Source: Opitutales bacterium (GTDB lineage: Bacteria; Verrucomicrobiota; Verrucomicrobiia; Opitutales; JABSRG01). From it: a stretch of 64,000 bases of DNA. Position numbers and translations under genes: made by a program. The stretch spans positions 62,001 to 126,000 of the forward strand of contig JANQKZ010000038.1 of the NCBI GenBank assembly GCA_028280845.1, given 5' to 3'. The notes beneath the pieces were generated by a model. It did not search any database. It had not been told where the DNA came from and saw only the letters and a program-made list of their open reading frames with translations. This document shows positions 24,951 to 51,560 of this stretch, piece by piece (positions within the stretch are counted from its first letter, which is position 1; each line of letters opens with the position of its first letter).

Positions 24951-25059
24951 TAGTTCACATTCCCCATGACAGCTCCCTCTCCCGCCAGGACCCTGGCGAA
25001 CGTCATCCTCAGCAAGGTAAAGCTGGCGTGCCATCCGTAGCTCCGGGGGGGGCGAAGGG

Positions 25060-25137
<78 letters not shown>

Positions 25138-37182: not shown

Positions 37183-39300
37183 ATGCCCCACCCCAAAATA
37201 AGGATTAGTCTTCACTCTGCTCTTCTGCTCTGGCCCCTCACCCTCTTCTCCAACAATCAGAACTGGTCGACCTATCTGGGCGATGCCCACTCCTCCCAAT
37301 ATTCCACCCTCGATCAGATTACCACCGAGAACGTTGATCAGCTGGAAGTAGCCTGGCGTTGGGATGGAGGCATGGCCTCTCCTGAAAATCGATCCCAGAT
37401 CCAGTGCAACCCCATCGTGATCGACGGGGTGCTCTATGGAAGCACCGCCATGCTGCACCTGGTCGCCCTCGATGCCGCCACCGGGGAGCAACTCTGGAGT
37501 TTCAATCCGTTTTCCATGGAGGCTTCCCGTTCGGGGCTCGGGGTGAACCGGGGATTAACTTACTGGGAATCGACAGACAGGTCAGATCGCCGGATCCTAT
37601 ACGCGACATCCCACTTTCTCTGGGCCATCGACGCCTGGACCGGGAAACCAATCCCCACTTTTGGCAAAGGCGGCCGGGTCGACCTCCGGGAAAATATGGG
37701 GCGCGACTCCGAGGGGCTTTTTGTGATTTCGAATTCTCCCGGTGCAATCTTTGAAAACACCATCGCCATGCCGGTCCGAGTAAACGAAGGCCCAGGCGGC
37801 AATCTGGCTCCGGGCCACATTCGGGCCTATGATGTGATAACCGGGGAGATGCAGTGGATTTTTCACACCATCCCCCAGCCCGGTCAGGAAGGCTTTGAGA
37901 CCTGGTCCGAAAATGCTCACAACGAGGTCGGTGGAGCCAATGTGTGGTCTGGTATATCCGTGGATCCGGAACGGGGTATCTTCTTCTGTCCGACCGGTTC
38001 TGCATCCTTTGATTTCTGGGGCGGCAACCGGCTCGGCGATAACCTCTACGCCAACAGCCTCATTGCGCTCGACGCCAGAACGGGTGAGCGAATATGGCAC
38101 TATCAGATCGTCCGCCATGACCTCTGGGATCGGGACCTTCCGGCATCTCCCAATCTGTTAACCATCGAACGGGACGGAAAACCCATCCCGGCTGTCGCCC
38201 AAATCACCAAGTCCGGACATGTGTTTGTCTTCCACCGGGAAACAGGCGAACCGCTCTTTCCCATCGAAGACATCATGGTCCCCAGCTCGGATTTAATTGG
38301 TGAGGTGGCCTCCCCCACTCAGCCTTTGCCTACAATCCCTAAGCCCTTTGCCCGACAGATTTTTTCGGCCGACCTGATCACCGATATTTCTGCGGAATCC
38401 CGGCGAGCAGTATTGGAGCGTTTCCACACCCTTCGCCCGCATATGCCGTTTACGCCGCCCAGCACTCAGGGGACGATCATCTTTCCCGGCTTTGACGGGG
38501 GTGGAGAATGGGGAGGCGCCGCACACAACCCCGATGGCATTCTCTATGTAAATGGAAATGAAATGCCCTGGGTGTTGACCATGGTCGACGCCCAGATTGG
38601 AGGACATCCCGGTCGGCAGATGTATTTGCAAAACTGCGCCGGGTGTCACGGCGCTGATCTCAAGGGAAGCCCTGCGCAAAACATCCCTACATTGGAAGGC
38701 TTAAGAAACCGACTCACCCCAGGCCAAGTCGCGGACATCGTCATGAATGGTAAGGGAGTCATGCCCAATTTTAAATACCTTCCGGAGAACTACCATAAAC
38801 AGATTGTGGACTTCATTCTCGACCCTGAGAAAGCGAGTACATCATCCCCCGTCCGCTCGATCAATCCCGGCATTCCCTACACTCACACCGGGTATCGCCG
38901 CTGGACCGACCCCGACGGTTACCCGGCGGTCAAGCCTCCCTGGGGCACCCTGAATGCAATCGATTTAAATACCGGGGAATATCTTTGGGCTGTTCCCCTG
39001 GGCGAAGTGGAAGCCTTAACTCAACGGGGTGTTCCCCCAACGGGTATTGAAAATTATGGCGGCCCCGTGGTCACGGCCGGAGGGCTCCTTTTTATCGCCG
39101 CAACGAAGGATGAGTTTATGCGCGCCTTCGATACTGCGACCGGCGAAGAACTCTGGAAATTCAAATTACCTGCTGGAGGATATGCCACTCCTGCCACTTA
39201 CAGCATCGACGGCAAACAATATGTCGTTATTGCCTGTGGAGGGGGTAAAATGGGGACACCGAGTGGGGACACCTACCTCGCCTTCAGCCTGCCTCAATAA
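37183..39300 (+). CDS. PQQ-dependent dehydrogenase with inserted cytochrome c domain
   Basis: 705 residues with a signal peptide (HSALLLWPLTLFS). An eight-bladed quinoprotein propeller is shown by repeated ALDAATGEQLW-type tryptophan-docking motifs (LVALDAATGEQLWSFN, LIALDARTGERIWHYQ, AIDLNTGEYLWAVPLG, FDTATGEELWKFKL). The propeller is interrupted at about residues 475-560 by a c-type cytochrome domain (NCAGCHGADLKG, CxxCH at about 482-486) that would pass electrons from PQQ to a respiratory carrier. Substrate: glucose/alcohol/aldose class, undetermined. No pqq biosynthesis genes are in the window. Periplasmic. Confidence 0.9.
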   Translation: MPHPKIRISLHSALLLWPLTLFSNNQNWSTYLGDAHSSQYSTLDQITTENVDQLEVAWRWDGGMASPENRSQIQCNPIVIDGVLYGSTAMLHLVALDAATGEQLWSFNPFSMEASRSGLGVNRGLTYWESTDRSDRRILYATSHFLWAIDAWTGKPIPTFGKGGRVDLRENMGRDSEGLFVISNSPGAIFENTIAMPVRVNEGPGGNLAPGHIRAYDVITGEMQWIFHTIPQPGQEGFETWSENAHNEVGGANVWSGISVDPERGIFFCPTGSASFDFWGGNRLGDNLYANSLIALDARTGERIWHYQIVRHDLWDRDLPASPNLLTIERDGKPIPAVAQITKSGHVFVFHRETGEPLFPIEDIMVPSSDLIGEVASPTQPLPTIPKPFARQIFSADLITDISAESRRAVLERFHTLRPHMPFTPPSTQGTIIFPGFDGGGEWGGAAHNPDGILYVNGNEMPWVLTMVDAQIGGHPGRQMYLQNCAGCHGADLKGSPAQNIPTLEGLRNRLTPGQVADIVMNGKGVMPNFKYLPENYHKQIVDFILDPEKASTSSPVRSINPGIPYTHTGYRRWTDPDGYPAVKPPWGTLNAIDLNTGEYLWAVPLGEVEALTQRGVPPTGIENYGGPVVTAGGLLFIAATKDEFMRAFDTATGEELWKFKLPAGGYATPATYSIDGKQYVVIACGGGKMGTPSGDTYLAFSLPQ

Positions 39301-39860
39301 ACTTCTGGCACCCCTGGCTTAGAGAGGGGAACCTGATCCTGGGTTCGGACAGGGATCGTTTTGGGCGACTTTGGCAACGAGGCTGATTTCTTGCCTTCCT
39401 TGGGCGGCTTCACCATCGGGGTTGGCTTCGGGACTCCGTGGTCCGTTGGCACCGTTTGCGGAGAGGCTGGTGGCTCGGGCTTTGGCCGGTATATCGGCAC
39501 CGGCGCAGGATTAGGCTTTGGCTTCGGGGTCGGCCCCTGAATGGGCACCGGAACCGGTTTGGGTTTCGGTTGCGGCGACGGGCTTGGATTCGCCTCGGGT
39601 GGAGGCGTTGTCGCAGGCGGAGGCACGGGGTCAGGAATTGGACCCGGTTGAGGTGGCCCATATCCCGGAGGATAGTCCGGGTATGGGCTCCCCATGTCTG
39701 GATTCGCCAACCAGATCATGGCCACCTCCATCACAACAGGCGCCATATCAACCGCGACCGCATCCCACTTATTCAGAGTGGAACATCCTGTCAGTCCTCC
39801 AACTCCCAGAGTTCCCATCAGAGTGACGAACAGAGGCTTCGCTAGGGGATATGGCTTCAT
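39294..39860 (-). CDS. Proline-rich lipoprotein
   Basis: 188 residues: signal peptide with lipobox GLTGC (Cys about 26), a short hydrophobic stretch (APVVMEVAMIWLA), then about 110 residues dominated by Pro alternating with Lys, Thr and Ser (KPKPVPVPI-like repeats). Such P-K rods span cell-wall or periplasmic space in other proteins. Its stop overlaps the convergent PQQ dehydrogenase by 7 bases. It lies 51 bases downstream of the gene for a membrane protein, on the same strand. Confidence 0.65.
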   Translation of the reverse strand: MKPYPLAKPLFVTLMGTLGVGGLTGCSTLNKWDAVAVDMAPVVMEVAMIWLANPDMGSPYPDYPPGYGPPQPGPIPDPVPPPATTPPPEANPSPSPQPKPKPVPVPIQGPTPKPKPNPAPVPIYRPKPEPPASPQTVPTDHGVPKPTPMVKPPKEGKKSASLPKSPKTIPVRTQDQVPLSKPGVPEVY

Positions 39861-39910
39861 ACCCCTAAAACGAATGTCTCAGCAGCCCTTGCAGGGCAAA
39901 ATACGGAAAA

Positions 39911-41212
39911 TCAGGCGTATTCTCCTCTTACGTCCGACTCGCGGGCGGCTTCTCCCATCCGGCGGCTCATTTCCTTAAACGAACTGTCACCCTCTGGAGC
40001 CTCTCCAGTGAAATCCGCACCCATTTTGTCAACGAGTTCACCAAAGCAGGGATTATAGGAACGGCTGAAGTTGTATTTAAATGCGGCCACTCCTCCCTGA
40101 TCAATCCGTATGGAATGGGCTATAAAACCGCGAACCACTTTCACTTCCCCCATCTCGGGCACAACTTCCATGGTCACATATCCGCCAAAGGGCTTATTGC
40201 GCGCAATAAGGTGGTTTCCATCCTTGGTTTTAATCCAGAAGCTGCGAACGCGCTTGGGAAATCCATCCAGCTTTTTGCCGGGATACACGGGTAACACGAC
40301 CTGGGGTTCCGGGTAAGCTGCGCGCAAGTCTTTAGGCAACCGGGTGGATGTCGCGGTCGGTTCCTTCCCCAGACCAATCCCGCGCAACATCCCCTTGAGG
40401 ATTGGGCCAAAGAGGACAATTCGATAGTAATTGGTCATCCGCATCGCCCACTTGAATAGGAGCAGGCAGAAGAAAAAGATGATGAAATTCAATAGCGTGG
40501 CCAGGGTCGGGCTAAAAATATAAAGCGCCATCAAGCCAGAGCAGATTACTTTTAATGCCGATTCGAACAGAGCATCGATCGCCGGAACCGGGCTTAGCCA
40601 AATCAACACCTCGAATAGAAACTTAATCGTGTTGATCACGAAAATGTTCACCGCGGAGACCACCATCAGGAGCGTACTCGCAGTCATGCTGACAATGCCC
40701 GCCTGCATCACGACTTGTTCTTCGCCCCCGCCCCCAAACTGAATGGTACTGATCCCCTGCATGACGGCGATTGTAGCAATCCCGGCATAAGCTTCCAACT
40801 GATCGATGGCCTGAGCCATTGGCTTAGTGACTTTCGTAAATTTCGGAAGCGATGTGAATACGGTCAGCCCAAGGAAGGAAAGAAACACGAGGGGATTATT
40901 CAGAGTTTTACTCCCCTGCAGGAAGGCATTATCGGGAAGGAGGCCCGCATCTACCAGAAAACTGGCTCCAGACAACATGGTTATCCCAAAAAAGGGACTC
41001 AAGGCAACCGGAGCCAAGGGCCCTATATACTCTGCTATCGGTATACTGGATGCGAAGGTGCTTCCCTTCTCCAGGGAATCGCTCCCCTTTCGGTTCATTT
41101 CATCCACCTGCCCGAACAACAGGCATGGTATCAGCAAACCAAAGCAGAGTCCCATAACCACCAAATGACGCGTTACACCTAGTTCCGGCGGGGCACCTCT
41201 GGATTTTCGCAT
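39911..41212 (-). CDS. Polytopic membrane protein of unknown function
   Basis: 433 residues. An N-terminal hydrophobic segment (about 17-34) and about six more transmembrane helices up to residue 265 are followed by a soluble C-terminal domain of about 165 residues with strand-rich content (FWIKTKDGNHLIARNKPFGGYVTMEVVP). I recognise no family. A Gly/Glu-rich loop GGGGEEQ near residue 163 is notable. It precedes the proline-rich lipoprotein gene on the same strand, and the pair may work at the envelope. Confidence 0.6.
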   Translation of the reverse strand: MRKSRGAPPELGVTRHLVVMGLCFGLLIPCLLFGQVDEMNRKGSDSLEKGSTFASSIPIAEYIGPLAPVALSPFFGITMLSGASFLVDAGLLPDNAFLQGSKTLNNPLVFLSFLGLTVFTSLPKFTKVTKPMAQAIDQLEAYAGIATIAVMQGISTIQFGGGGEEQVVMQAGIVSMTASTLLMVVSAVNIFVINTIKFLFEVLIWLSPVPAIDALFESALKVICSGLMALYIFSPTLATLLNFIIFFFCLLLFKWAMRMTNYYRIVLFGPILKGMLRGIGLGKEPTATSTRLPKDLRAAYPEPQVVLPVYPGKKLDGFPKRVRSFWIKTKDGNHLIARNKPFGGYVTMEVVPEMGEVKVVRGFIAHSIRIDQGGVAAFKYNFSRSYNPCFGELVDKMGADFTGEAPEGDSSFKEMSRRMGEAARESDVRGEYA

Positions 41213-41382
41213 GCAAGTAAGATTGCCGCCTCCCGCCCATAGAGCAACGGATTTATTCCCCGGTGCATTTCAGGCAATTTTGGCACGCCATTGTCACAGT
41301 TCGGGACATTTAGACCCATTGGCGAAATAAGGAAAAATGCTCAAATCACTATAAATCAACATTTTAAAGAATAAAAACAGCC

Positions 41383-41398
41383 TGGTATGCCAGATGCA
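41383..41398 (+). promoter_or_regulatory. Candidate sigma-54 promoter of hsp20
   Basis: TGGTATGCCAGATGCA carries GG (41384-41385) and GC (41396-41397) at the required 12-base spacing, with three mismatches to TGGCAC-N5-TTGCA. The predicted start near 41409 leaves a 26-base leader with AAGGA eight bases before the hsp20 ATG. The site is weaker than the psp promoter, but its placement is ideal. No CIRCE element is seen. Confidence 0.5.
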
Positions 41399-41434
41399 CT
41401 ATGAGGGGTGAATCCAAACCAAGGATAAACAACC

Positions 41435-41851
41435 ATGACTCTAATAAAATACGACAATTACTACAATGATCCCTTCAGTGAGTTAGACCGGTTGCTGGAA
41501 TTTTCCTTTAATCCCCGCAATCGCCTGACTCGCTTCTTCCAGGAAACGGGAAGCCGGGACTTCCGTCTCGATATCTATGCCGATGACGACAACACCTATG
41601 TCATTGCGGAACTTCCCGGCATCCAAAAGAAGGACCTCGACATCCAACTTCACAATTCAGTGTTAACCATTACCGCTGAACGTAAGCAAAAGAAGGGGGA
41701 TACCGAGTCCAGCTTTCGTGCCAAACGAGAAGTAACCCTCAGCGATGACGTTAGACCTGAAAAAGTCGAGGCCCGCTTCGAGGACGGCTTGCTCAAAGTC
41801 ACCCTTCCCAAGCGGGAAGAGCGTAAACCCAAAGCAATCACCATCAATTAA
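41435..41851 (+). CDS. hsp20: Hsp20/alpha-crystallin small heat-shock protein
   Basis: 138 residues. The alpha-crystallin domain (about 45-135) shows ADDDNTYVIAELPGIQKKDLDIQL, VLTITAERK and the C-terminal GLLKVTLPKREERKPKAITIN with the I-x-I/V tail (ITI) that docks on neighbouring dimers. An ATP-independent holdase forming oligomers. First of two Hsp20 genes, 16 bases apart, and preceded by a possible sigma-54 promoter with a good AAGGA ribosome site. Confidence 0.95.
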   Translation: MTLIKYDNYYNDPFSELDRLLEFSFNPRNRLTRFFQETGSRDFRLDIYADDDNTYVIAELPGIQKKDLDIQLHNSVLTITAERKQKKGDTESSFRAKREVTLSDDVRPEKVEARFEDGLLKVTLPKREERKPKAITIN

Positions 41852-41867
41852 CCCAGATTTATCACTC

Positions 41868-42242
41868 ATGGATACCCAAATTACTAAGGAAACTCCGGCT
41901 AAAGCCGCCAAAGAACAACGTTACCTGCGTCCCCGTTATGAGGTCGATACCAGCCAGGACGAATACTTCGTCCGCGTCTATCTGCCCGGCGTCAAAAAGG
42001 AAGCGGTAGACATCACCCTCGACAACGATGACCTGCTCATCCTCGGGCACCGTTCGTCCGTCGTCCAGGATGGTTGGAAAACCATCTACCGTGAACTTCC
42101 GGACGCGGATTACCGCCTGAAACTCCAACTCAATGTCCACATTGATGGATCCCGAATCGGGGCAAAGGTAGAGGACGGAATCCTGACCGTGACCCTCCCG
42201 GTGGCAGAGGAGGCTAAGCCGCGCCAGATCTCCGTGAACTAA
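41868..42242 (+). CDS. Second Hsp20/alpha-crystallin family protein
   Basis: 124 residues from ATG 41868. Core domain: DTSQDEYFVRVYLPGVKKEAVDITLDNDDLLILG and EDGILTVTLPVAEEAKPRQISVN, with an I-x-V tail. It lacks most of the N-terminal arm that drives large oligomers in its upstream partner, so the two may form mixed assemblies. Co-transcribed with hsp20 and ended by a strong terminator. Confidence 0.93.
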   Translation: MDTQITKETPAKAAKEQRYLRPRYEVDTSQDEYFVRVYLPGVKKEAVDITLDNDDLLILGHRSSVVQDGWKTIYRELPDADYRLKLQLNVHIDGSRIGAKVEDGILTVTLPVAEEAKPRQISVN

Positions 42243-42319
42243 TTTCACCCATTTGAGAGGTAGTGAGAACACAGGGAGGACCTAGTCTTCGGACTCCCCT
42301 CCCTGTCAAAAGATAAGGT

Positions 42320-42357
42320 GGCCGCGGTGAGCATGCTTGCATGCACCGCGGCCTTTT
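42320..42357 (+). terminator. Terminator of the hsp20 pair
   Basis: A GGCCGCGGTG/CACCGCGGCC perfect 10-bp stem with a 13-base loop (which itself contains GCATGC) is followed by five T residues. A weaker hairpin with an AGTC-TTCG-GACT core (near 42290) precedes it. Confidence 0.9.
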
Positions 42358-42405
42358 TGGATAGTTTTCCCTTGATTGAAACTGCCTATTCCGCGGTTGC
42401 TCATT

Positions 42406-43401
42406 ATGGACTTTAAAGATTACTACGAAACACTCGGGGTTTCCCGGGATGCCTCCCAGGAAGAAATAAAGAAAGCCTTCCGCAAGCTGGCGCGTAAATA
42501 TCACCCGGATCATAAGCAGGAGCATGAGAAAGCTGCCGCTGAGGAGAAATTCAAGGAAATCAATGAAGCCTATGAAGTGCTCGGGGATAAGCAAAAGCGG
42601 GAGAAATACGATCTCCTGGGCGCCAACTGGAAACAGGCCGCAGGGGCGGGCGCAGGTGGATTTAATCCTTTCGGGCAAGGGTTCCCCGGCGGTGGATATG
42701 GCCAGACCTACGAATCAGGGCCCGGCGGTGGATCGTTTCACTTCGGTGGGACTGGCTTCAGTGACTTTTTTGAACAGTTTTTTGGGATGGGCTCAGGGAT
42801 GGACGGGTTCTCTCATGGGTTCCCCGGAAACCGGGGACGATCCCGGCAAGCCACCCCCAATTTAAATGCGGAAGCAGACTTACTCGTCACTCTGGAAGAA
42901 GCCTTCAAAGGAACCGATAAGCAACTGACGCTGCAACGCACGGGGGAAGATGGCCATGCGACAACCGAGTCGCTACACGTTAAAGTGCCTTCCGGTATTC
43001 GGGATGGGCAAAAGCTTCGACTCAAAGGTAAGGGACATCCCGGGCAAGCGGGCCAACGGGGTGACCTCCTGTTAAATTTGAAGTTCGCCCTTCACCCGGA
43101 CTACCGCCTGGAGGGAGATGATCTCCTCTCTACCCTGGAAATCGCACCGTGGGAAGCCGCCCTGGGCACCCGAGTCAGCCTGCATACCCTGGAGGGAACT
43201 ATTCGACTCAATATCCCGGCCGGGACCCAAAGCGGCAAAAAACTAAAGCTCAAGGGCCGCGGCTGGAAACGAAAAGATGGCACCCGGGGTGACCATTTTG
43301 TCACCGTTCAATTGGTAGTCCCCCACCCGCTCTCTCCCGAAGAAGAACGGCTCTTCGGCGAACTGGCCGACCGTTCAGCCTTTAATCCCAGGGGAGATTA
43401 G
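42406..43401 (+). CDS. cbpA: DnaJ/CbpA-type J-domain co-chaperone
   Basis: 331 residues from ATG 42406 ([12 protein letters not shown]). J domain (1-70) with the HPD triplet in KYHPDH, needed to stimulate DnaK; a Gly/Phe-rich linker (about 85-150); then two C-terminal substrate-binding domains ([16 protein letters not shown] to the end). It has no zinc-finger CxxCxGxG repeats, which marks it as CbpA-type rather than DnaJ. It follows the hsp20 pair beyond a terminator, making a small chaperone cluster. Confidence 0.93.
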
Positions 43402-43536
43402 CGCCTTCCGCATAACCAGCTAGAGGCCTTGTCTTTGATCCGGCTTTTCATCCCTAACCTACAAAAAACAGTTGACCCCTCTACCCGGAATCTGTGTTTT
43501 CCTATGTTTCCTTTTGGCCAATGTGGCCAATCCCAT

Positions 43537-43613
43537 GCACCGCTAGCTCAATTGGATAGAGCACCTGACTACGGATCAGGAGGTTGGGGGTTCGACTCCC
43601 TCGCGGTGTACCA
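43537..43613 (+). tRNA. tRNA-Arg (ACG anticodon)
   Basis: Acceptor GCACCGC/GCGGTGT (first pair G-U), D-arm GCTC...GAGC, anticodon arm CCTGA-CTACGGA-TCAGG reading ACG, T-arm GGGGG-TTCGACT-CCCTC and an encoded CCA (43611-43613). The last 21 bases are repeated 174 bases downstream. Confidence 0.97.
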
Positions 43614-43940
43614 CCCATTTTCTAAGGGGCTACGCCCTGTACAGAAAATGGAGGGCCGCGGCGGAGCTTCAGCGGAGACGGGCATCCACACCTTAGCCGG
43701 TCCACGTCGAACCCCCAACACGCGCTGACGCGCTCGTTTGTGGTGGTTGATCGGCTTTAGCCTGAACGACTCCCTCGCGGTGTACCACCTATTTTCTAAG
43801 GGGCTACGCCCTGTATAGAAAATGGAGGGCCGCGGCGGAGCTTCAGCGGAGACGGGCATCCACACTTTAGTCGGTCCACGTCGAACCCCCAACACGCGCT
43901 GACGCGCTCGTTTGCGGTGGTTAATCGGCCTTAGCCGGAA
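43593..43940 (+). repeat. Tandem 2 x 174-bp repeat starting inside the tRNA-Arg 3' end
   Basis: CGACTCCCTCGCGGTGTACC begins both at 43593 (inside tRNA-Arg) and at 43767, and the copies stay nearly identical to 43766 and 43940, with about ten scattered differences. Each unit holds a hairpin (CCATTTTCT ... AGAAAATGG), a G+C-rich core and GACGCGCTCG. The antisense reading frames are open but show only tRNA and repeat sequence. Bases 43614-43949 contain no gene. The structure resembles duplicated attachment sites left at tRNA genes, or a slipped amplification. Confidence 0.85.
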
Positions 43941-43949
43941 CTAAGGCGC

Positions 43950-44477
43950 TTAGCTATCGCCCTTTTTGAGCTCTTCCACATCGATGAACTCATAGAGGTC
44001 CCCCGGAACCGCAGGCAGGGCCATGGACAACTTCAAATCAACCGCGCTCAGGAGGAGGCCCTCCAGTTGGAAGAACCGGGTGGCCAGCCCAACCCCGATC
44101 TCTTCCACAAAAATGTCATAATACTTCATTTTCATTTCAAGGCGTTGTTTTTCCAACGCCATAGAGCGCCTGGCCAGATCCAGGGTTTCTTTGTCAGTCA
44201 GGCCCATGGTATACAGATTCAGGTAATCGCGGATCAGTTGGATGCGGTCATTCTGCAAAGGCTGTAAGGCCTGCTCATATTTATTGTAGACGGGCCAGAA
44301 CTTGGCAGCTTCGTCCGAGGTAAACCGCATGCCATCAGATATGAGCACCATCTTTTCCTGGTTCATTTCCTGGCGGATCCTCTCAAGAAACGCATCCACC
44401 GATATGTCCATATTCGCAGCAAGAGCTCCAGGGAGGATTCCGATAAGCATGAGGGAGAGCGGAAGGAGTTTTTTCAT
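43950..44477 (-). CDS. Secreted helical protein, Spy/CpxP-like (tentative)
   Basis: 175 residues: signal peptide (LLPLSLMLIGILPGALA), then an almost entirely helical mature part. Features such as FTSDEAAKFWPVYNKYEQALQPLQNDRIQLIRDY and the Leu/Met/Lys-rich helix EKQRLEMKMKYYDIF recall periplasmic helical chaperones and stress proteins of the Spy/CpxP type, but the LTxxQ repeats of that family are not clear. It lies divergent from the barrel protein gene. Confidence 0.6.
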   Translation of the reverse strand: MKKLLPLSLMLIGILPGALAANMDISVDAFLERIRQEMNQEKMVLISDGMRFTSDEAAKFWPVYNKYEQALQPLQNDRIQLIRDYLNLYTMGLTDKETLDLARRSMALEKQRLEMKMKYYDIFVEEIGVGLATRFFQLEGLLLSAVDLKLSMALPAVPGDLYEFIDVEELKKGDS

Positions 44478-44576
44478 AGGAGAGAAGATTGGTTAGAGGT
44501 TAAGGCTGGTAAAAGAAGCCTGTTTCTATTCCTTTTCAAGGGGATACCTCTATTTTGCTAGGAACCGCGGCTATTT

Positions 44577-45881
44577 ATGCTCAACAAGTTGATCCAACAA
44601 ATCGTCCTGGTTGGTGTGGGGCTCTCCTGCCTCCCTCCCCTGCACGGCCAGCTTCGTTTTAAGCGGATCGACAAAGAATCTACCGATTTCAGCATTATCG
44701 TTCCCTATATGCTGAGAACCGAAAGCATGAAGACCGTCCTCGGGGTCGCCGGTGGCACCAATCGCCTGGGCCAGGATTATTCCAATCTGTATGGTGCCAT
44801 CCAAGGGTCCAGCAACGACTCTCATCTCTACCTCTTTGGTGGAAATAATATTCGCTTAGGCGACAGCCAATCCCGGTGGTTCCTCGATATCATGGCCTCT
44901 ACGGGGCGGACTGCTGAACGGAAAATATACGGTGGGTTTGATCCTACATTCCCGAGCTTGCGCTACGGGAGCCATGACTCTGCCCGGGATGACTTTTTCA
45001 TCGATGATACCTGGGAAACGATCGCGGATGTCAGTTTCAAATATTTGCTACCCATCGGAAATTTAACGGAAGGTCCCGTTCATACCTATGCAGTCGAAGG
45101 GGGCATGTTGCAGGAGCACCCGTCCGGGGGAAACCCGTGGAACCCATTACAAAGCGGACGCACCATCCTGTCTTTTACCCCTGCCTATCGCGAGCAATAC
45201 ATCAACCTCACAGAAGATCTGCGGGCCACCGCCAGAACCTTTAATTTCCAGCTCGAGGTCAAGTATGATAACTCCGACTTTTATCCGAACCCTATGCGTG
45301 GAAGCCGGACCCGCATCCAGCTTAAGATGGATCCGGGCTGGCTCGACGGGACCGACCCCTGGTATTCCTTCGAAGCTCAGTTCTCCAAATACATTCCACT
45401 GCCAGCCGGGGACCAGGTGAAACACCAGGTATTAGCCTTCGACTTCTGGACCTCACACTCCCCTTCCTGGAGGAACACCGTCGGTCCTGGAGGTATCCCT
45501 CGGGTCGAAAATGCTCCACCATATTTTGAGAGCAGCACCCTGGGCGGTTTCTGGCGCTTGCGCGGATACCCTTCCAACCGTTTTCATGACCGGTCGGCCA
45601 TCCATTATACCATGGAGTATCGGGTCATTCCCAACTGGCGGCTCCTGGACTTCCTCTACCGCATCAAAATCCTGGATCTACAATGGATCCAATACGTGGT
45701 CGCTGCCGAAGCGGGCCGGGTCGCTCCCCAGTATGACTTGGGCACCCTGCATACCGACATGAAGTGGGACCTGGGTTTTGGCATCCGTGCGATGTTTGGA
45801 AATGCCGTGGGCCGACTGGAGTTCTTCTATTCTGAAGAAAATCCCCTCTACATCAGCGGGATGATTAACCAGACATTTTAG
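44577..45881 (+). CDS. Omp85/BamA-like outer-membrane barrel protein (no POTRA)
   Basis: 434 residues with a short signal sequence (IVLVGVGLSCLPPLHG). The C-terminal half has alternating strands and the barrel motif LGGFWRLRGYPSNRFHD followed by EYR, the LRG(Y/F) element of the Omp85 surface-antigen family that lines the barrel lumen; the protein ends in Phe (MINQTF), a beta-signal. There is no POTRA domain, so it resembles D15-like barrels in which the N-terminal domains were lost. It is divergent from the secreted helical protein gene. Confidence 0.75.
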   Translation: MLNKLIQQIVLVGVGLSCLPPLHGQLRFKRIDKESTDFSIIVPYMLRTESMKTVLGVAGGTNRLGQDYSNLYGAIQGSSNDSHLYLFGGNNIRLGDSQSRWFLDIMASTGRTAERKIYGGFDPTFPSLRYGSHDSARDDFFIDDTWETIADVSFKYLLPIGNLTEGPVHTYAVEGGMLQEHPSGGNPWNPLQSGRTILSFTPAYREQYINLTEDLRATARTFNFQLEVKYDNSDFYPNPMRGSRTRIQLKMDPGWLDGTDPWYSFEAQFSKYIPLPAGDQVKHQVLAFDFWTSHSPSWRNTVGPGGIPRVENAPPYFESSTLGGFWRLRGYPSNRFHDRSAIHYTMEYRVIPNWRLLDFLYRIKILDLQWIQYVVAAEAGRVAPQYDLGTLHTDMKWDLGFGIRAMFGNAVGRLEFFYSEENPLYISGMINQTF

Positions 45882-45910
45882 ACAGCATCACAAATTTCCC
45901 GCGAAACGAC

Positions 45911-47563
45911 CTAGGGCGTGTCGCCCAGCATCTCAGGCAGGGGAGTCCCGACACAACCCGACGGAGGTTTCACTTTCAAGAGGGCTGCCAGCGTAGCAGC
46001 AATGTCAACCGGCGCAGAGGGCCGATGAATGTGACGCGGCTGGTCCACTCCATGTCCGGCAAAAATCATGGGAACGAACCGGTCATACGCCCACGGGGTG
46101 CCATGCATTCCGGTAACCAGCGCGGGAACCGGATCATGGTATAAATACCAATACTGGTCGGGAATGAGATAAACATGACCCGACCGTCGGGGATGAAAAC
46201 TGTTTTTCACGCGACGATAGATCGGATCATCCGGGAAGTCTCCCAACTGAAGCTGGGAATGCGGAATGGCATACGCAAAACCGGGAATATTCAGGACTAT
46301 ATCCCTGACCGCGAATTCAACTTCGGACAGGCTCAAGCCCTCCATCGTGATCTGATCCAAGTCAAGAAACAGGTAAGGGGTAACAAAGGTATCCACGAGG
46401 TCGACTCCAATTTCAAAGCGATCATAAAGGGCCCGATTAATTTGGGTGATGAAGGCTTCCGAGCTATCGTGACGATGCACGTCCATGCCCAGGGCATGCA
46501 TATGTTCCGGTGCCTCAGGCACACCATGATCCGAGGAGAGGACAATCAAGGTGTTCTGCAGACCGACCTCCTGATGAATGAACGTAAAGAGGTCTGCCAG
46601 GGTTCGGTCGAGCCGAAGGAGATTATCCTCATACTCCAGACTGGCCGGCCCCCAAACATGCCCAATGTAGTCTGTAGAGGAAAAACTGACGGATAGGTAA
46701 TCCGTATAGTCCCCTGCTCCTACCGCCTCGGCCACCACCAGAGTTTTGAGAAAATCCAGCGTGATTTCGTCGCCAAAGGGGGTTTTCGTCAACCCATCGT
46801 AGAAATCCGCATCCGACTCTGCAGCCAGCTCATGGGGAAACTGGTTATCCAGATGTTTATATGGAATTTCAAAGGGCCGGTCATCCGAATCCCCGTACGT
46901 GTAAGTCTCCTGTGGATACATGAGTTCCCAACTGTCGTCCCGAAAGGTATCCGGAAGGTTGCGATCATTCCATTCAGTCAACCACTCGGGATTCGCATCA
47001 TAATAGTAGGTCGTGGTCACGAACTCCCCGACAGCTTTATCGAAAAAGAACGCCTTTCCCTGAAATCCCGCCATCAGGATCGCTCCCCGATCTTTGATCG
47101 ATACCCCGAAGGCCCGGCTTTTCCCGTTGTTAGCTAATACGATCTCATCTCCGATGGTGGAGGAGAGTAAGTTCTTCGGGGAGGTGCCAACCTTCGGATC
47201 CGGCTCCTTGCCAATCACTGTATAGTCCAGGTCTTGCGTATTGTAGACCCATTCCTGGACATCCGGGTCATACCAGTCGTTGGAAATAATGCCATGCTGG
47301 GCCGGATGCGCCCCCGTAGAGAGCGTGGCATGCCCCGCTGCGGTTAGCGTCACCGCATGTTCATAATGAGTATTCGTGTAATAGAGCCCTTCTTCGATCA
47401 AATATCTGAGTCCTCCCCGACCGAATCGGTCTTGCATACGAAGCGGAAAATCTCCTCTTAATTGATCTACCGTCACTTGCAGGACTAACTTCGGGGACTG
47501 AGCAGATAGATTTCCGGAAAGGCCAACGATAATACAAAGCAGAGCAAGTAGGGGACGTTTCAT
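45911..47563 (-). CDS. PafA-like alkaline phosphatase / phosphodiesterase family
   Basis: 550 residues with a signal peptide (ALLCIIVGLSGNLSAQ). Alkaline-phosphatase superfamily metal sites: D33 in TVDQLRGD, the probable threonine nucleophile T74 in VTLTAAGHAT, DYIGHVWGP and the SSDHGVPEAPEH block. The ordering fits PafA-type calcium-independent phosphatases, which release phosphate from many monoesters in the periplasm. The exact substrate is open. It lies alone, minus strand, convergent with the barrel gene. Confidence 0.88.
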   Translation of the reverse strand: MKRPLLALLCIIVGLSGNLSAQSPKLVLQVTVDQLRGDFPLRMQDRFGRGGLRYLIEEGLYYTNTHYEHAVTLTAAGHATLSTGAHPAQHGIISNDWYDPDVQEWVYNTQDLDYTVIGKEPDPKVGTSPKNLLSSTIGDEIVLANNGKSRAFGVSIKDRGAILMAGFQGKAFFFDKAVGEFVTTTYYYDANPEWLTEWNDRNLPDTFRDDSWELMYPQETYTYGDSDDRPFEIPYKHLDNQFPHELAAESDADFYDGLTKTPFGDEITLDFLKTLVVAEAVGAGDYTDYLSVSFSSTDYIGHVWGPASLEYEDNLLRLDRTLADLFTFIHQEVGLQNTLIVLSSDHGVPEAPEHMHALGMDVHRHDSSEAFITQINRALYDRFEIGVDLVDTFVTPYLFLDLDQITMEGLSLSEVEFAVRDIVLNIPGFAYAIPHSQLQLGDFPDDPIYRRVKNSFHPRRSGHVYLIPDQYWYLYHDPVPALVTGMHGTPWAYDRFVPMIFAGHGVDQPRHIHRPSAPVDIAATLAALLKVKPPSGCVGTPLPEMLGDTP

Positions 47564-47640
47564 GATTCGTATAGTGTTCTAGGTCAATCCGGCTGACTTC
47601 GGATTTGAAACCTTAAATGATGACTTAGGTCACAGACATG

Positions 47641-47829
47641 TTAAACCTGCTCACATGCTCCCGGGGGATCAGCTTGACCATTGACGATACGGTTGAAGGC
47701 CCCCGACATCGGCAACAGCGGGCCAGGACGATCTGAAGTTCCAGTCCGTGTGGCTCCATGCAGACCCGGAGCGATCGAAGCCGCCCCCGCGGCTCCCATG
47801 AGTGTGTGTAGAAAAGAGCGCCGTTTCAT
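47641..47829 (-). CDS. Short Tat-signal ORF (possible gene remnant)
   Basis: 62 residues. The first 25 are a complete Tat signal (MKRRSFLHTLMGAAGAAS, RRSF twin-arginine), cleaved near GLHGA; the remaining 37 residues have no fold I can recognise and end abruptly. It is either a very small exported protein or the 5' remnant of a larger Tat substrate. It lies divergent from an aldo/keto reductase that also has a Tat signal, so the two may share an origin. Confidence 0.4.
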   Translation of the reverse strand: MKRRSFLHTLMGAAGAASIAPGLHGATRTGTSDRPGPLLPMSGAFNRIVNGQADPPGACEQV

Positions 47830-47957
47830 GAGGCAATCCTACCGGCCCAAAGAGTGGAATCAAGCTATTGAGAACGCCTGTCCTTCAAGATAACGGTCCC
47901 ATCCGATTTCCCGGAATCACCATTGCCCCCGACTTTCTCCACGCTACACTTTTCGAT

Positions 47958-49166
47958 ATGGATCAAGATCGTTCGCTTTCTCACCCCTCTCGCCGTTCAT
48001 TTATTAAAGGAGCGATCCTGACCGCGGGAGCTGCCGCCTCCAGTGCCAGACTTCACGCCTCGGATCAGAAGAATCCCCCTAACGCAGCCGTCAGTAATCC
48101 GCCCGAATGGCGCAATAAAGTGGATGGAATGGCCTATCGCCGCCTGGGCCGATCCGGCATGATGGTGTCAGAATTGACCCTTGGGGGTAGTGGACAGCTC
48201 AACAACCCGGAAAAGGTCAATGTTCACCTGGCGGCTATTGAGCGCGGGGTAAACTACATCGATTCAGCCTCTCGCTACAACCGGGGAGACAGTGAAAAGG
48301 GCTGGGGCAAAATGCTGAATGATCACCCGGGGCTCCGGGACAAACTTTTTATCGCCACGAAGATGAGCTCCTATTTGCAGACACTCCAGGGTTTGACAAA
48401 TGATTGGTTGAAGGGGCAACCCTCCGAAAAGCAAAATGCGATTCGGGCCAGAGCGGTAGAAATGGCGGAGGCCCGCCAGGTCGCCAAACCCGGCTACTTC
48501 ATTCGCTTTTTCAACAACCAGCAAAATGAGATTACCCGCGGTTATCTCCTGCAGGCCATCAAGGAAGAATCCGGATTCCTCGCTGCCTGGAAAGCAACGC
48601 TGGAAAAATCCTTGATCCAGGAGGTCGAGACCAGCTTATCCCGACTCGGTGTGGAAACGATTGACGTGTTGTTCTGTCCCCACGGTGCACGCCTCCCCGA
48701 AGATTTAAAGGACGCAATCCTTCCCGAAACCTTCGCGGCCCTGAAGCAGCAGGGAAAGATTCGCTTTACTTCTTTTTCCTCTCACACCGACCCACCCCGG
48801 GTGTTAAGGCAAGCCGCAGACCTGGGGTACTATGACTGCGCAATGGTGGCTTACAATATCGCAAACCAGGGAACCATGGAACCGGCCATCCGCTACGCGG
48901 TGGAAAAGGCAGACATGGGGATTATCGCCATGAAAGCCGCCGCCGCCGTCCACACCGATAAAAAAGGTATCCTTCCCCTACCGGCCTGGCGCCAGCAGAA
49001 ACTGGACACCATCATCCCCGGAGACATGAATCCTCCCGTGAAAGGCTACCTCTGGGCCCTTCAGAACCAAAACATCGGGGCCGTCATCTCAGAAATAGGA
49101 AGCCGGGAAATGATTTTGGAGAACTTAACCATTGTCGGTAAAAAAGTGGATATGGACTTTGCCTGA
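47958..49166 (+). CDS. Tat-exported aldo/keto reductase
   Basis: 402 residues from ATG 47958. A twin-arginine signal (SRRSFIKGAILTAGAAASSA) precedes an AKR barrel: RRLGRSGMMVSELTLGG, YIDSASRYNRGDSEKGW (the Asp and Tyr of the catalytic tetrad region) and the NAD(P)-binding tail region around GAVISEIGSREMILEN. Insertions (ATKMSSYLQTLQGLTND; the segment about 150-215) make it longer than classical AKRs. Tat-exported AKR-like proteins are abundant in planctomycetes and Verrucomicrobia. The substrate is unknown. Confidence 0.88.
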   Translation: MDQDRSLSHPSRRSFIKGAILTAGAAASSARLHASDQKNPPNAAVSNPPEWRNKVDGMAYRRLGRSGMMVSELTLGGSGQLNNPEKVNVHLAAIERGVNYIDSASRYNRGDSEKGWGKMLNDHPGLRDKLFIATKMSSYLQTLQGLTNDWLKGQPSEKQNAIRARAVEMAEARQVAKPGYFIRFFNNQQNEITRGYLLQAIKEESGFLAAWKATLEKSLIQEVETSLSRLGVETIDVLFCPHGARLPEDLKDAILPETFAALKQQGKIRFTSFSSHTDPPRVLRQAADLGYYDCAMVAYNIANQGTMEPAIRYAVEKADMGIIAMKAAAAVHTDKKGILPLPAWRQQKLDTIIPGDMNPPVKGYLWALQNQNIGAVISEIGSREMILENLTIVGKKVDMDFA

Positions 49167-49244
49167 ATTGTATCCTTTTTTTGGGTACAAAAATAATCCT
49201 TGGGGAAGCTCGACTTTTCGAGCCATTCAAGGAAAACTCTTGAG

Positions 49245-50492
49245 GTGACTGACGCGCAACAACTCAAGCCAGGCTCTCCGGCCTTGCCCCCGGATTACCC
49301 GGACCAGCCGGTCCGGGCCAGAATCACTTATCGCAATGAGTTGCTGCGTTCAGTCTTTCACAACACCCTGGGGGAAGGGATTGTCGCCTTTGGCTTATTG
49401 GTAGCTATCCGGCACTTCGATGCTCCGAGCCTCGGAAAAAGCCTGCTTTCAGCATCCTTTGCCATTGGACTCCTGGTCACTCCCATCGGCCTCTATCTGG
49501 CCCGGCAGACCGGACTCCGTGTGAGCCACATCGGCAGCTTATTACTGATTTTTGCTTCCTTCGGTCTGATCAGTGCGGCATCGGCCGACACCTTTGTGTA
49601 TTACGTTTGCGGGGTCCTGGGAGCGAATTTGTTGATCGCTCAATTGCCCCAGTTGGTCGTGCAGATGTATACCAATAACTTCACCGCGAGGGAGCGCGGA
49701 AAGAAACTATCTCACTTCATTATCCTCGGCGGGGGCACAGCCGGTATCGCTTCGTGGTATTTTGGAGGCCTGCTCGATTTAAATATCCACTACTTCAGTC
49801 TGATCTTCTTGTTCCTTGCCGGGTGTAGCTTAATCTCCGGTTTGCTCCTGCGGAATAATCCCAGCCTGCCCCTCACCCAAGCCAACAGCGGGAACCCATG
49901 GGAGAATGTCAGCCTGGCCTGGCAGGATAAAATTTTTGGATATATGCTGGCCGGTTGGATGATTCTGGGAATTGGCAATATGCTCGCTATGCCCCTGCGC
50001 TATGAATACCTCGCCAACCCCCTTTATAGCGTCAATCTCACCAATGCGGAAATCGCCTTAATCCTCGTACTGGTCCCCAATGTGTTCCGGATTTTCGGGG
50101 CCCTGTCCTTCGGACTCCTGTTCGACCGCGTCAATTTCATCCAGATACGCATCTTTCTGAACCTGTTAATCGTTGGAGGGATTTTTATCTTTTTCCACAC
50201 CACTTCAATTTCCCTGCTCATGGTGGGATCGGCCTTGACCGGATTAGCCATCGGGGGAAGTAATATAGCCTGGACCCTGTGGGTCACCAAATTGGCCCCG
50301 GAAAACAAGATTGCGGCCTATATGAGCGTGCATACCGGGTTTACCGGGCTACGCGGTATGCTGGCGCCGTTTGCCGGCTACATGTTGCTGGACCTGGTCG
50401 GGCCCCAACGAGCGGGAGAAGTAGGATCCCTGCTCGTCGTCATTTCGATCTTCATGTTCCTCGGGCTGTGGAAGAGCCCAAGATTCCGATAA
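49245..50492 (+). CDS. MFS transporter
   Basis: About 415 residues from GTG 49245, which follows AAGGA at about 11 bases; an in-frame TTG at 49200 is less likely. Twelve hydrophobic helices with the inter-helix-2/3 and central-loop pattern of the major facilitator superfamily, e.g. RITYRNELLRSVFHNTLGEGIVA before TM1 and FTARERGKKLSHFIILGGGTAGI near TM5. The substrate is not deducible; distantly like sugar-phosphate and drug permeases. Adjacent to the aldo/keto reductase gene, same strand. Confidence 0.85.
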   Translation: MTDAQQLKPGSPALPPDYPDQPVRARITYRNELLRSVFHNTLGEGIVAFGLLVAIRHFDAPSLGKSLLSASFAIGLLVTPIGLYLARQTGLRVSHIGSLLLIFASFGLISAASADTFVYYVCGVLGANLLIAQLPQLVVQMYTNNFTARERGKKLSHFIILGGGTAGIASWYFGGLLDLNIHYFSLIFLFLAGCSLISGLLLRNNPSLPLTQANSGNPWENVSLAWQDKIFGYMLAGWMILGIGNMLAMPLRYEYLANPLYSVNLTNAEIALILVLVPNVFRIFGALSFGLLFDRVNFIQIRIFLNLLIVGGIFIFFHTTSISLLMVGSALTGLAIGGSNIAWTLWVTKLAPENKIAAYMSVHTGFTGLRGMLAPFAGYMLLDLVGPQRAGEVGSLLVVISIFMFLGLWKSPRFR

Positions 50493-50498
50493 ACGGTA

Positions 50499-51560
50499 TC
50501 AAAAGATATCAAACAACAGCTCGAGATGCATTTTCAGTCCACGGCCCAGGGTCGGGTTCTCCCCGGAGAACTTCAGGCTCGATCGGCAGGCATTGGCTTC
50601 AATCAAAGCCCGATCATACTCCAGCAACTGCACATTGCCAGGATCACCCTGTATGCCGTCACTCGCATACCGGGGGATCCAGCGGAGGGGTAAGTTGTAG
50701 TAGGAGAAATCCACATCCCAGGCCTGCAGAGTTTCATTTCGCAATGAACCCGCAATGAGAGAGGGATAACGTTTCACAAAATCGGGGATTTCCTGGGTGT
50801 AAATCCGTAGGGAAACCGCTACGGGTTCCTGGTTGAGGAAGTCGATCGGTCCGGCCACCTGGCCCTGCATCATTTTTTGAAAGAAATCAACCGGGTCAAA
50901 GCCGACCAGGTTCATTCCATTCCAAAGACCATGTTTATTCTCCGATTCATAGCGTTGCTTTCGATACCAGGAATCAAAGTCATCGCTCAAGCGGAGTCCG
51001 ATTTCAAAATGCAGGTGTGCCCGGGACTTCGGAATGGTATAGCCTCCGGCGGATCGCCCCATGATACCGATTTCATCTCCGGCCAGAACCCCCTGCCCGA
51101 CCGACAGACCGGGGGCCGCCACTTTCAGGTGGGCATAGAGTGTATAGACGGCAGGATGGAAGTCCGGGTGCTCCAGGACAATATAGCGACCATAACTACT
51201 GTTTCCCGCCACCGTATTGATATGGACCACTTTCCCGGGAAAGGCGGCATAGATGGGATCGGTGGCTTCATTCCGCGAATCGCGATCGATGGCTTTCAGG
51301 TCCACTCCTTCATGGAAGCGAAATCCGTCATTGCGCACGCAGCCAAACAAGGCCGATTCCAGACGGCCAGACACGGTCGGCTGCAGGTAGGTCGCCGGGT
51401 CCTTCCCCTGAAAAAATGAAGGGTTCGGTGTGGGCCAGACCACATTCAGCGTGACCGGACTATCGTTGGCCACGAGGGCAATCCAGCCGGACCAGGCGCC
51501 CATACCGGACACCAGGCCCATCCATAGGCAGACCCGCCTGATGTTAAAATATGAGGTCAT
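50499..51560 (-). CDS. M23 (LytM-type) metallopeptidase
   Basis: 353 residues with an N-terminal hydrophobic segment. The zinc ligands of M23 endopeptidases are present: H and D in FRFHEGVDL, and HLHFEIG; the glycine-rich loop VVHINTVAGNSSYGRYIVLEHPD lies between. The extra C-terminal 145 residues contain WNGMNLVGFDPVDFF. Such enzymes cut peptidoglycan cross-links. Its first 17 bases overlap the end of the preceding minus-strand gene, suggesting coupled translation. Confidence 0.88.
   Translation of the reverse strand: MTSYFNIRRVCLWMGLVSGMGAWSGWIALVANDSPVTLNVVWPTPNPSFFQGKDPATYLQPTVSGRLESALFGCVRNDGFRFHEGVDLKAIDRDSRNEATDPIYAAFPGKVVHINTVAGNSSYGRYIVLEHPDFHPAVYTLYAHLKVAAPGLSVGQGVLAGDEIGIMGRSAGGYTIPKSRAHLHFEIGLRLSDDFDSWYRKQRYESENKHGLWNGMNLVGFDPVDFFQKMMQGQVAGPIDFLNQEPVAVSLRIYTQEIPDFVKRYPSLIAGSLRNETLQAWDVDFSYYNLPLRWIPRYASDGIQGDPGNVQLLEYDRALIEANACRSSLKFSGENPTLGRGLKMHLELLFDIF

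Follow-up and report, generated by a model that had tools for sequence, protein, structure and literature searches.

Genes for tRNA and tmRNA are classic landing sites of bacterial mobile DNA, and the locus described here raises the question of what re-creates the 3' end of such a gene immediately downstream of it. The window, that is, the whole 64-kb stretch of DNA that was analyzed (C55:62001-126000), belongs to a 4.79-Mb draft genome of 62 contigs (97.74% complete, 1.52% contamination). In it, the last 21 bases of a tRNA-Arg(ACG) gene recur exactly at 43767, and the whole 174-bp unit that starts with them is present twice, as an earlier note on this DNA had reported and as our analysis bears out. 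The note offered attachment-site duplication by an integrase or an unequal amplification as the cause and suggested that the unit, which carries a palindrome, may itself be a mobile repeat.

The duplicated unit behind tRNA-Arg(ACG)

The features of the locus, followed by those at the second tRNA gene of the window, are as follows (window coordinates):

43537-43613, + strand: tRNA-Arg(ACG), CCA encoded
43593-43766, + strand: unit 1, consisting of the tRNA 3' tail (T-loop position 56 to CCA), hairpin H1, hairpin H2, and a spacer
43615-43651, + strand: hairpin H1 of unit 1, outer stem CCATTTTCT/AGAAAATGG plus inner stem
43655-43683, + strand: hairpin H2 of unit 1, GCCGCGGCGGAGC..GCGGAGACGGGC
43706-43719, - strand: 14-nt antisense copy of the tRNA-Arg T-arm in spacer 1, repeated at 43880-43893
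43767-43940, + strand: unit 2, tandem copy with 95% identity to unit 1
43767-43787, + strand: exact 21-nt duplicate of the tRNA-Arg 3' end, from T-loop position 56
43789-43825, + strand: hairpin H1 of unit 2
43829-43857, + strand: hairpin H2 of unit 2
25025-25059, - strand: element of the CCTTCGC..CGGATGGCACGCC type, directly behind tRNA-Val(TAC)
25060-25137, - strand: tRNA-Val(TAC), the window's other tRNA

Each unit thus comprises the last 21 nt of tRNA-Arg(ACG) and 153 bp of further sequence, and this duplication is the only tandem array in the 64-kb window. The palindrome is real and perfect in unit 1, where it is the outer stem of H1, and one base of this stem is altered in unit 2 (CTATTTTCT). 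The 14-nt spacer copies, one per unit, are perfectly antisense to the T-arm of the gene at 43583-43596. An 11-nt antisense copy of its own T-arm lies in the spacer behind tRNA-Arg(CCT) (L082, +95..+105), and no such copy was seen at tRNA-Cys. At gathering thresholds, Rfam recognized only the two tRNAs in the window; at a loose threshold it gave no family for the element, and an antisense Plastid-ycf2 match over the tRNA was below its cut-off. Comparison of the duplicated DNA with plasmids and phages returned no match.

Attachment-site duplication by an integrase found no support at this locus. An integrase domain is absent from the ten window proteins scanned (37183-51560), most of which are encoded by ordinary chromosomal genes (DnaJ, HSP20, PQQ dehydrogenase, Omp85, etc.), a search near the locus found neither an integrase nor an island, and the four integrase-domain genes of the genome are situated elsewhere. 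An unequal amplification, the other cause put forward, fits the local duplication. As for further copies of the unit, the full 174-bp sequence occurs in the genome at this locus only, and its two-hairpin core recurs elsewhere as a genome-wide family tied to tRNA and tmRNA 3' ends, which lends support to the suggestion of a mobile repeat.

A covarying two-hairpin element directly behind tRNA and tmRNA genes

The core is an element with a defined location, a shared architecture, and covarying stems. Its distribution was cataloged with a covariance model of H1-H2 (R1) built from 11 copies of this genome. Among the best 150 of 2602 first-look candidates, R1 recognized 27 places in the 4.79-Mb genome (E ≤ 1), and all of them lie behind a tRNA or tmRNA 3' end, behind a duplicated tRNA or tmRNA tail, or inside an array of this kind, with one tail match being weak. 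The bases upstream of these places were matched against the 3' termini of the genome's 40 tRNA genes and its tmRNA gene. At 18 of the 27 places, the 18 upstream nucleotides agree with a tRNA 3' end at 16 to 18 of 18 positions, and the maximum reached in 3000 random window positions was 14 of 18. Another three (a Tyr copy, tmRNA, and an Asp remnant) follow a tail that is complete or nearly so when read in a shifted register, short remnants precede four (tmRNA, 10 nt; Asn, 10 nt twice; and Asn, 7 nt, the weak match), and two are inside the tRNA-Ser(GGA) array.

Furthermore, a separate R1 search of 264 kb of sequence from this genome placed all 12 hits of at least 28 bits at such tRNA or tmRNA ends; away from these ends nothing in the 264 kb exceeded 18 bits, the next best hit having 17.8 bits. 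The CGGATGGCACGCC sites behave similarly, as 15 of the 16 are near tRNA ends or the GIY-YIG element described below, the exception being C26:121427. Behind tRNA-Cys there is a four-copy array with a unit of ~170 bp, in which the later units each start with the tRNA-Cys 3' end. The H1 pattern had no match in viral contigs. Its one match among named genome contigs, in a Saprospiraceae MAG, was set aside as chance, with no tRNA nearby and, by eye, an apparent position within coding sequence.

By inspection, 23 of the 40 tRNA genes carry an element directly behind the CCA, and the tmRNA gene likewise carries one of the same architecture. The tRNA genes are distributed by stem as follows:

CCTTCGC/CCTACGC type (n = 12): Ala-GGC, Arg-CCG, Asp, Lys-CTT, Lys-TTT, one Met, Pro-TGG, Ser-GCT, Ser-GGA, Tyr, Val-CAC, Val-TAC
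CATTTTC type (n = 6): Arg-ACG, Arg-CCT, Cys, one Gly-TCC, His, Thr-TGT
Other stems (n = 5): Leu-GAG, Leu-TAG, Leu-CAA, Ala-CGC, Arg-TCT

The copies share one plan, in which the tRNA CCA is followed by H1, by H2 ending in GGGC, and then by a locus-specific spacer. Since the element begins directly behind the CCA, the tRNA or tmRNA gene remains whole. Pairing was evaluated in 24 copies (the copies that lie above E 0.05 among 25 chosen loci) in an alignment fitted to the model, a bias that favors the structure: 91% of the cells are paired versus 74% in shuffles, both sides have changed at 15 of the 19 pairs, and the covariation score is 0.460 versus 0.150 when shuffled, a value that 0 of 500 shuffles reach. 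Shifting the pairing partners by one column abolishes the signal. H1 is the bearer of this signal; H2 keeps its outer GCC/GGC pairs, and one assumed inner pair fails (1 of 24 copies). The organization is not that of a MITE, and this identity was rejected: terminal inverted repeats bounding the whole unit and a target-site duplication were not found, the inverted repeats that were found there, namely, the T-arm copies and one unrelated pair, do not bound the unit, and the two consecutive hairpins are both at one end.

Small GIY-YIG genes beside the element

All three small stand-alone GIY-YIG genes of the genome lie behind a tRNA gene and an element, at tRNA-Val(CAC), tRNA-Arg(TCT), and tRNA-Lys(TTT). 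At tRNA-Lys(TTT) and tRNA-Arg(TCT), the small GIY-YIG gene has a copy of the element on both sides. The third gene is at a contig end that shares a 71-nt overlap with the contig end behind tRNA-Val(CAC), and it is counted with the others because of this overlap. The genome has two further PF01541 matches, both within larger open frames (539 and 232 aa). In full versions of the element, the nuclease has 82 to 83 residues, little beyond the catalytic domain, and the PF01541 matches (E values of 6.5e-14 and 4.1e-12) identify it as a GIY-YIG protein. Residues of the catalytic type are retained across 23 aligned proteins (Y in 23, G in 22, R in 22, H in 22, and E in 23). Within this genome, Q replaces the conserved R in the tRNA-Arg(TCT) copy, two in-frame stops interrupt one Lys copy, and the other Lys copy is, by eye, apparently frameshifted. 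The window copy and most other copies of this genome have no nuclease gene, which counts against a reading based on the nuclease.

In a survey of the order, 33 of 177 genomes, including this one, have a GIY-YIG relative, and the same-family genome G001 has none. A tRNA or tmRNA 3' end precedes 23 of 30 GIY-YIG loci inspected in the order, an association of the gene with its candidate target. A complete tRNA or tmRNA gene is 86 to 533 nt upstream on the same strand at 18 of them, and an orphan 3' end was recognized by eye at 5 (L152, L158, L160, L164, and L169). Seven loci have neither: a contig edge truncates two of them (L165 and L167), one (L172) comes second in a tandem gene pair, three (L174, L176, and L177; no tRNA end) resemble other GIY-YIG proteins, and L149 (no recognizable tRNA) has element-like sequence. 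Most complete tRNA and tmRNA genes at these loci have NCCTTCGC or NGCTTCGC immediately after the CCA. Applied to 32 GIY-YIG loci, R1 gave 10 hits, of which 8 begin at or within ~3 nt of the tRNA or tmRNA CCA; the model was trained on our genome only, and the scores in other genomes are individually weak (12.8 to 21.3 bits). The GIY-YIG units have no downstream copy of the tRNA tail (two 11-nt matches only, for 19 tRNA or tmRNA genes), and consequently tail duplication is an event separate from insertion. No match was found for one GIY-YIG protein against plasmids, for another against phages, or in an alignment against viral contigs.

A known parallel is SegB of phage T6, a homing endonuclease of the GIY-YIG type (PMC13096335). 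It cleaves inside tRNA genes with a preference for RAWTSGAAC, and tandem amplification of the tRNA-segB segment requires it. The reverse complement of this site, GTTCSAWTY, appears to read like a tRNA T-arm. As with SegB and other free-standing phage GIY-YIG homing endonucleases (PMC13096335), a small enzyme is found here beside tRNA genes of many isotypes, and segments containing tRNA sequence are amplified in tandem. In contrast to SegB, the element is chromosomal, its enzyme has 82 to 83 aa, it sits directly behind the CCA with two hairpins, and it has many nuclease-less derivatives; homing would be assigned to it by analogy. By the same analogy, it may work like a free-standing homing-endonuclease element, with which it shares both domain and location.

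On balance, we favor the reading that this is a selfish element specific for tRNA and tmRNA ends with a homing-type GIY-YIG nuclease, and that the window copy is a nuclease-less, tandemly amplified derivative. Its mobility and cleavage we infer as follows. The nuclease would cut tRNA genes in the conserved T-arm or T-loop (T-arm sequence GTTCGAATCC), and repair of the break would copy the element behind new tRNA or tmRNA ends. Tandem units that each start with a tRNA 3' tail could arise when a T-loop break recombines with the right end of the element, and the window copy, whether it has lost the nuclease gene or was always without it, would rely on copies at other places. As judged from SegB, T-arm breakage could account both for how the element spreads to tRNA ends of every kind and for tandem units starting in the T-loop. 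If this is true, extra tRNA tails and tandem attachment sites are explained without an integrase, and the element is a simple bacterial counterpart of the phage tRNA/SegB system.

The element is probably a little-known kind of selfish DNA homing to tRNA genes. Descriptions of bacterial GIY-YIG elements behind tRNA genes were not found in searches of open-licence literature, which is weak evidence of absence, and there is a fair chance that the element is a class of its own. More tentatively, it is possible that it represents an undescribed selfish class specific for tRNA and tmRNA CCA ends, co-transcribed with the tRNA and made of two hairpins and a minimal GIY-YIG nuclease. Such a class could spread to any tRNA or tmRNA because its nuclease would read the universal T-arm, and its T-loop breaks would make extra tails later used by larger islands.

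Tail duplications, islands, and other explanations

The chief rival to a homing element is an integrase acting on T-loop sites. The units would then be miniature integrase cassettes, namely, shrunken islands with attP-like arms (H1-H2; CTCGGAA or GACCC) that a tyrosine recombinase places at attB sites of the T-loop type and that accrete in tandem. We consider this rather unlikely, and the tail duplications, which start in the T-loop and have conserved flanks, speak for it. Among tRNA-tail copies scored within 1.5 kb, those of Arg-ACG, Leu-GAG, and Ser-TGA start at T-loop position 56, those of Pro-GGG (twice), Ser-GGA (twice), Tyr, and Met start at position 58, those of Cys start near 55/61 with mismatches, and there is one partial Leu-CAG copy; the remnant tails of islands start at 45 (Val), 54 (Leu-TAG), and 61 (Asp). 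Copies that start at position 56 are preceded by CTCGGAA or TGAA, and those that start at 58 by GACCC or a similar sequence. GIY-YIG enzymes leave 2-nt overhangs, and integrases have T-loop sublocation classes. The two groups of copies are offset by 2 nt, which would be consistent with a staggered GIY-YIG cut and also with two families of recombination sites, and defined recombination ends account at least equally well for the conserved sequences on the left flank of the duplicated tails.

Islands are a second point for the cassettes. The R1 remnants far from tRNA genes are the distal ends of islands of ~2.8 to 11.5 kb, which extend from the tRNA or tmRNA to a remnant tail with H1-H2 at Val(GAC) (~8.8 kb), Leu(TAG) (10.7 kb), Asp (2.8 kb), and tmRNA (4 kb), with several more at tRNA-Asn. 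An integrase-domain gene is present in each of the tRNA-Val(GAC) and tmRNA islands, and by eye integrase-like fragments are near two GIY-YIG loci of other genomes (L158 and L169). As in tRNA- or tmRNA-integrated islands and attR fragments, a partial tRNA 3' end is re-created downstream, here as a 21-nt direct repeat with similar ones at other tRNAs; tRNA fragments re-created by integrated islands are well known (PMC9897764). Unlike such islands, the units measure ~100 to 270 bp and have no integrase, and a single family lies behind many different tRNAs. An integrase in or next to the element was found only in the Val and tmRNA islands and not at the window locus, and the four integrase-domain genes of the whole genome are far below the number of element-bearing tRNAs. 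Moreover, more than 20 different tRNAs are followed by one and the same element family, although an integrase core has to match its tRNA, and the GIY-YIG units have their left end at the CCA with no tail copy.

The islands at tRNA-Asn (L050, C41:108000-127900) contain CBASS-like genes (SAVED, DncV-like), FRG, and PIN/HTH pairs, with a repeated ParB-like HTH gene at island ends. A gene for an HUH replication-initiator-like protein (PF23343; L045:8920-10161, - strand, C38) adjoins the tRNA-Val(GAC) remnant tail. It was considered as a mobilizer and dropped, since elsewhere in the genome it matches nothing but a short antisense stretch of the repeat. A homologue of pentameric ligand-gated ion channels (Neur_chan_LBD, E 3.3e-27) is encoded at L051:13037-14230 (+ strand, C41).

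It appears improbable that the hairpins are a host feature, that is, the tRNA terminators or processing signals of this lineage, with plain replication slippage producing the 174-bp duplication. Their position directly behind the CCA and their strong conserved pairing would suit this role, and by eye many of these genes are without an ordinary U-tailed terminator directly behind them. However, the hairpins are missing in a genome of the same family and another genus (32 tRNA genes from 30 loci out of 37 matches). Inverted repeats of at least 6 nt, 0 to 3 nt behind the CCA, occur at 21 of 40 tRNA genes here (shuffled, 9.1%) versus 4 of 32 there (shuffled, 8.0%), and those of at least 7 nt at 13 of 40 (shuffled, 2.5%) versus 1 of 32 (shuffled, 1.9%), by a measure that catches a few ordinary hairpins (e.g., one tRNA-Met terminator) and misses many CCTTCGC types. 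Likewise, the element was not seen by eye at 29 tRNA-Arg genes in 28 loci of order relatives, which have ordinary downstream sequence, often with a U-tailed terminator. Some tRNAs of our own genome keep ordinary terminators as well, and the nuclease genes, tandem arrays, and patchy presence point to a mobile element.

Quite improbable, finally, are REP sequences mobilized by RAYT (Y1 HUH) transposases that prefer tRNA ends. The elements are small two-hairpin palindromic repeats, some in tandem and possibly transcribed, as are the GTAG- or CGTC-tagged REPs and REPINs with their RAYT, the genome has four Y1_Tnp domains, and REPs are widespread in bacteria, including one REP-rich verrucomicrobium (PMC3733652); yet the four Y1_Tnp loci have no R1 match at E ≤ 10, the copies are few and confined to tRNA and tmRNA ends rather than scattered between genes, and the recurrent neighbor gene is GIY-YIG. 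The identity as a tagged REP was rejected on two grounds, as no RAYT adjoins the element and a constant end tag is lacking: its end shows neither an unpaired GTAG nor an unpaired CGTC motif, the bases directly behind the CCA are variable, and GNAG occurs inside H2 only.

Another repeat that trails tRNA genes, GGATGAGAAC..GTTCGACG..GGAGATGG (L056, L079, L083, and L086; in the same family, L190, L192, and L193), is common, in similar form, to our genome and the same-family genome G001.
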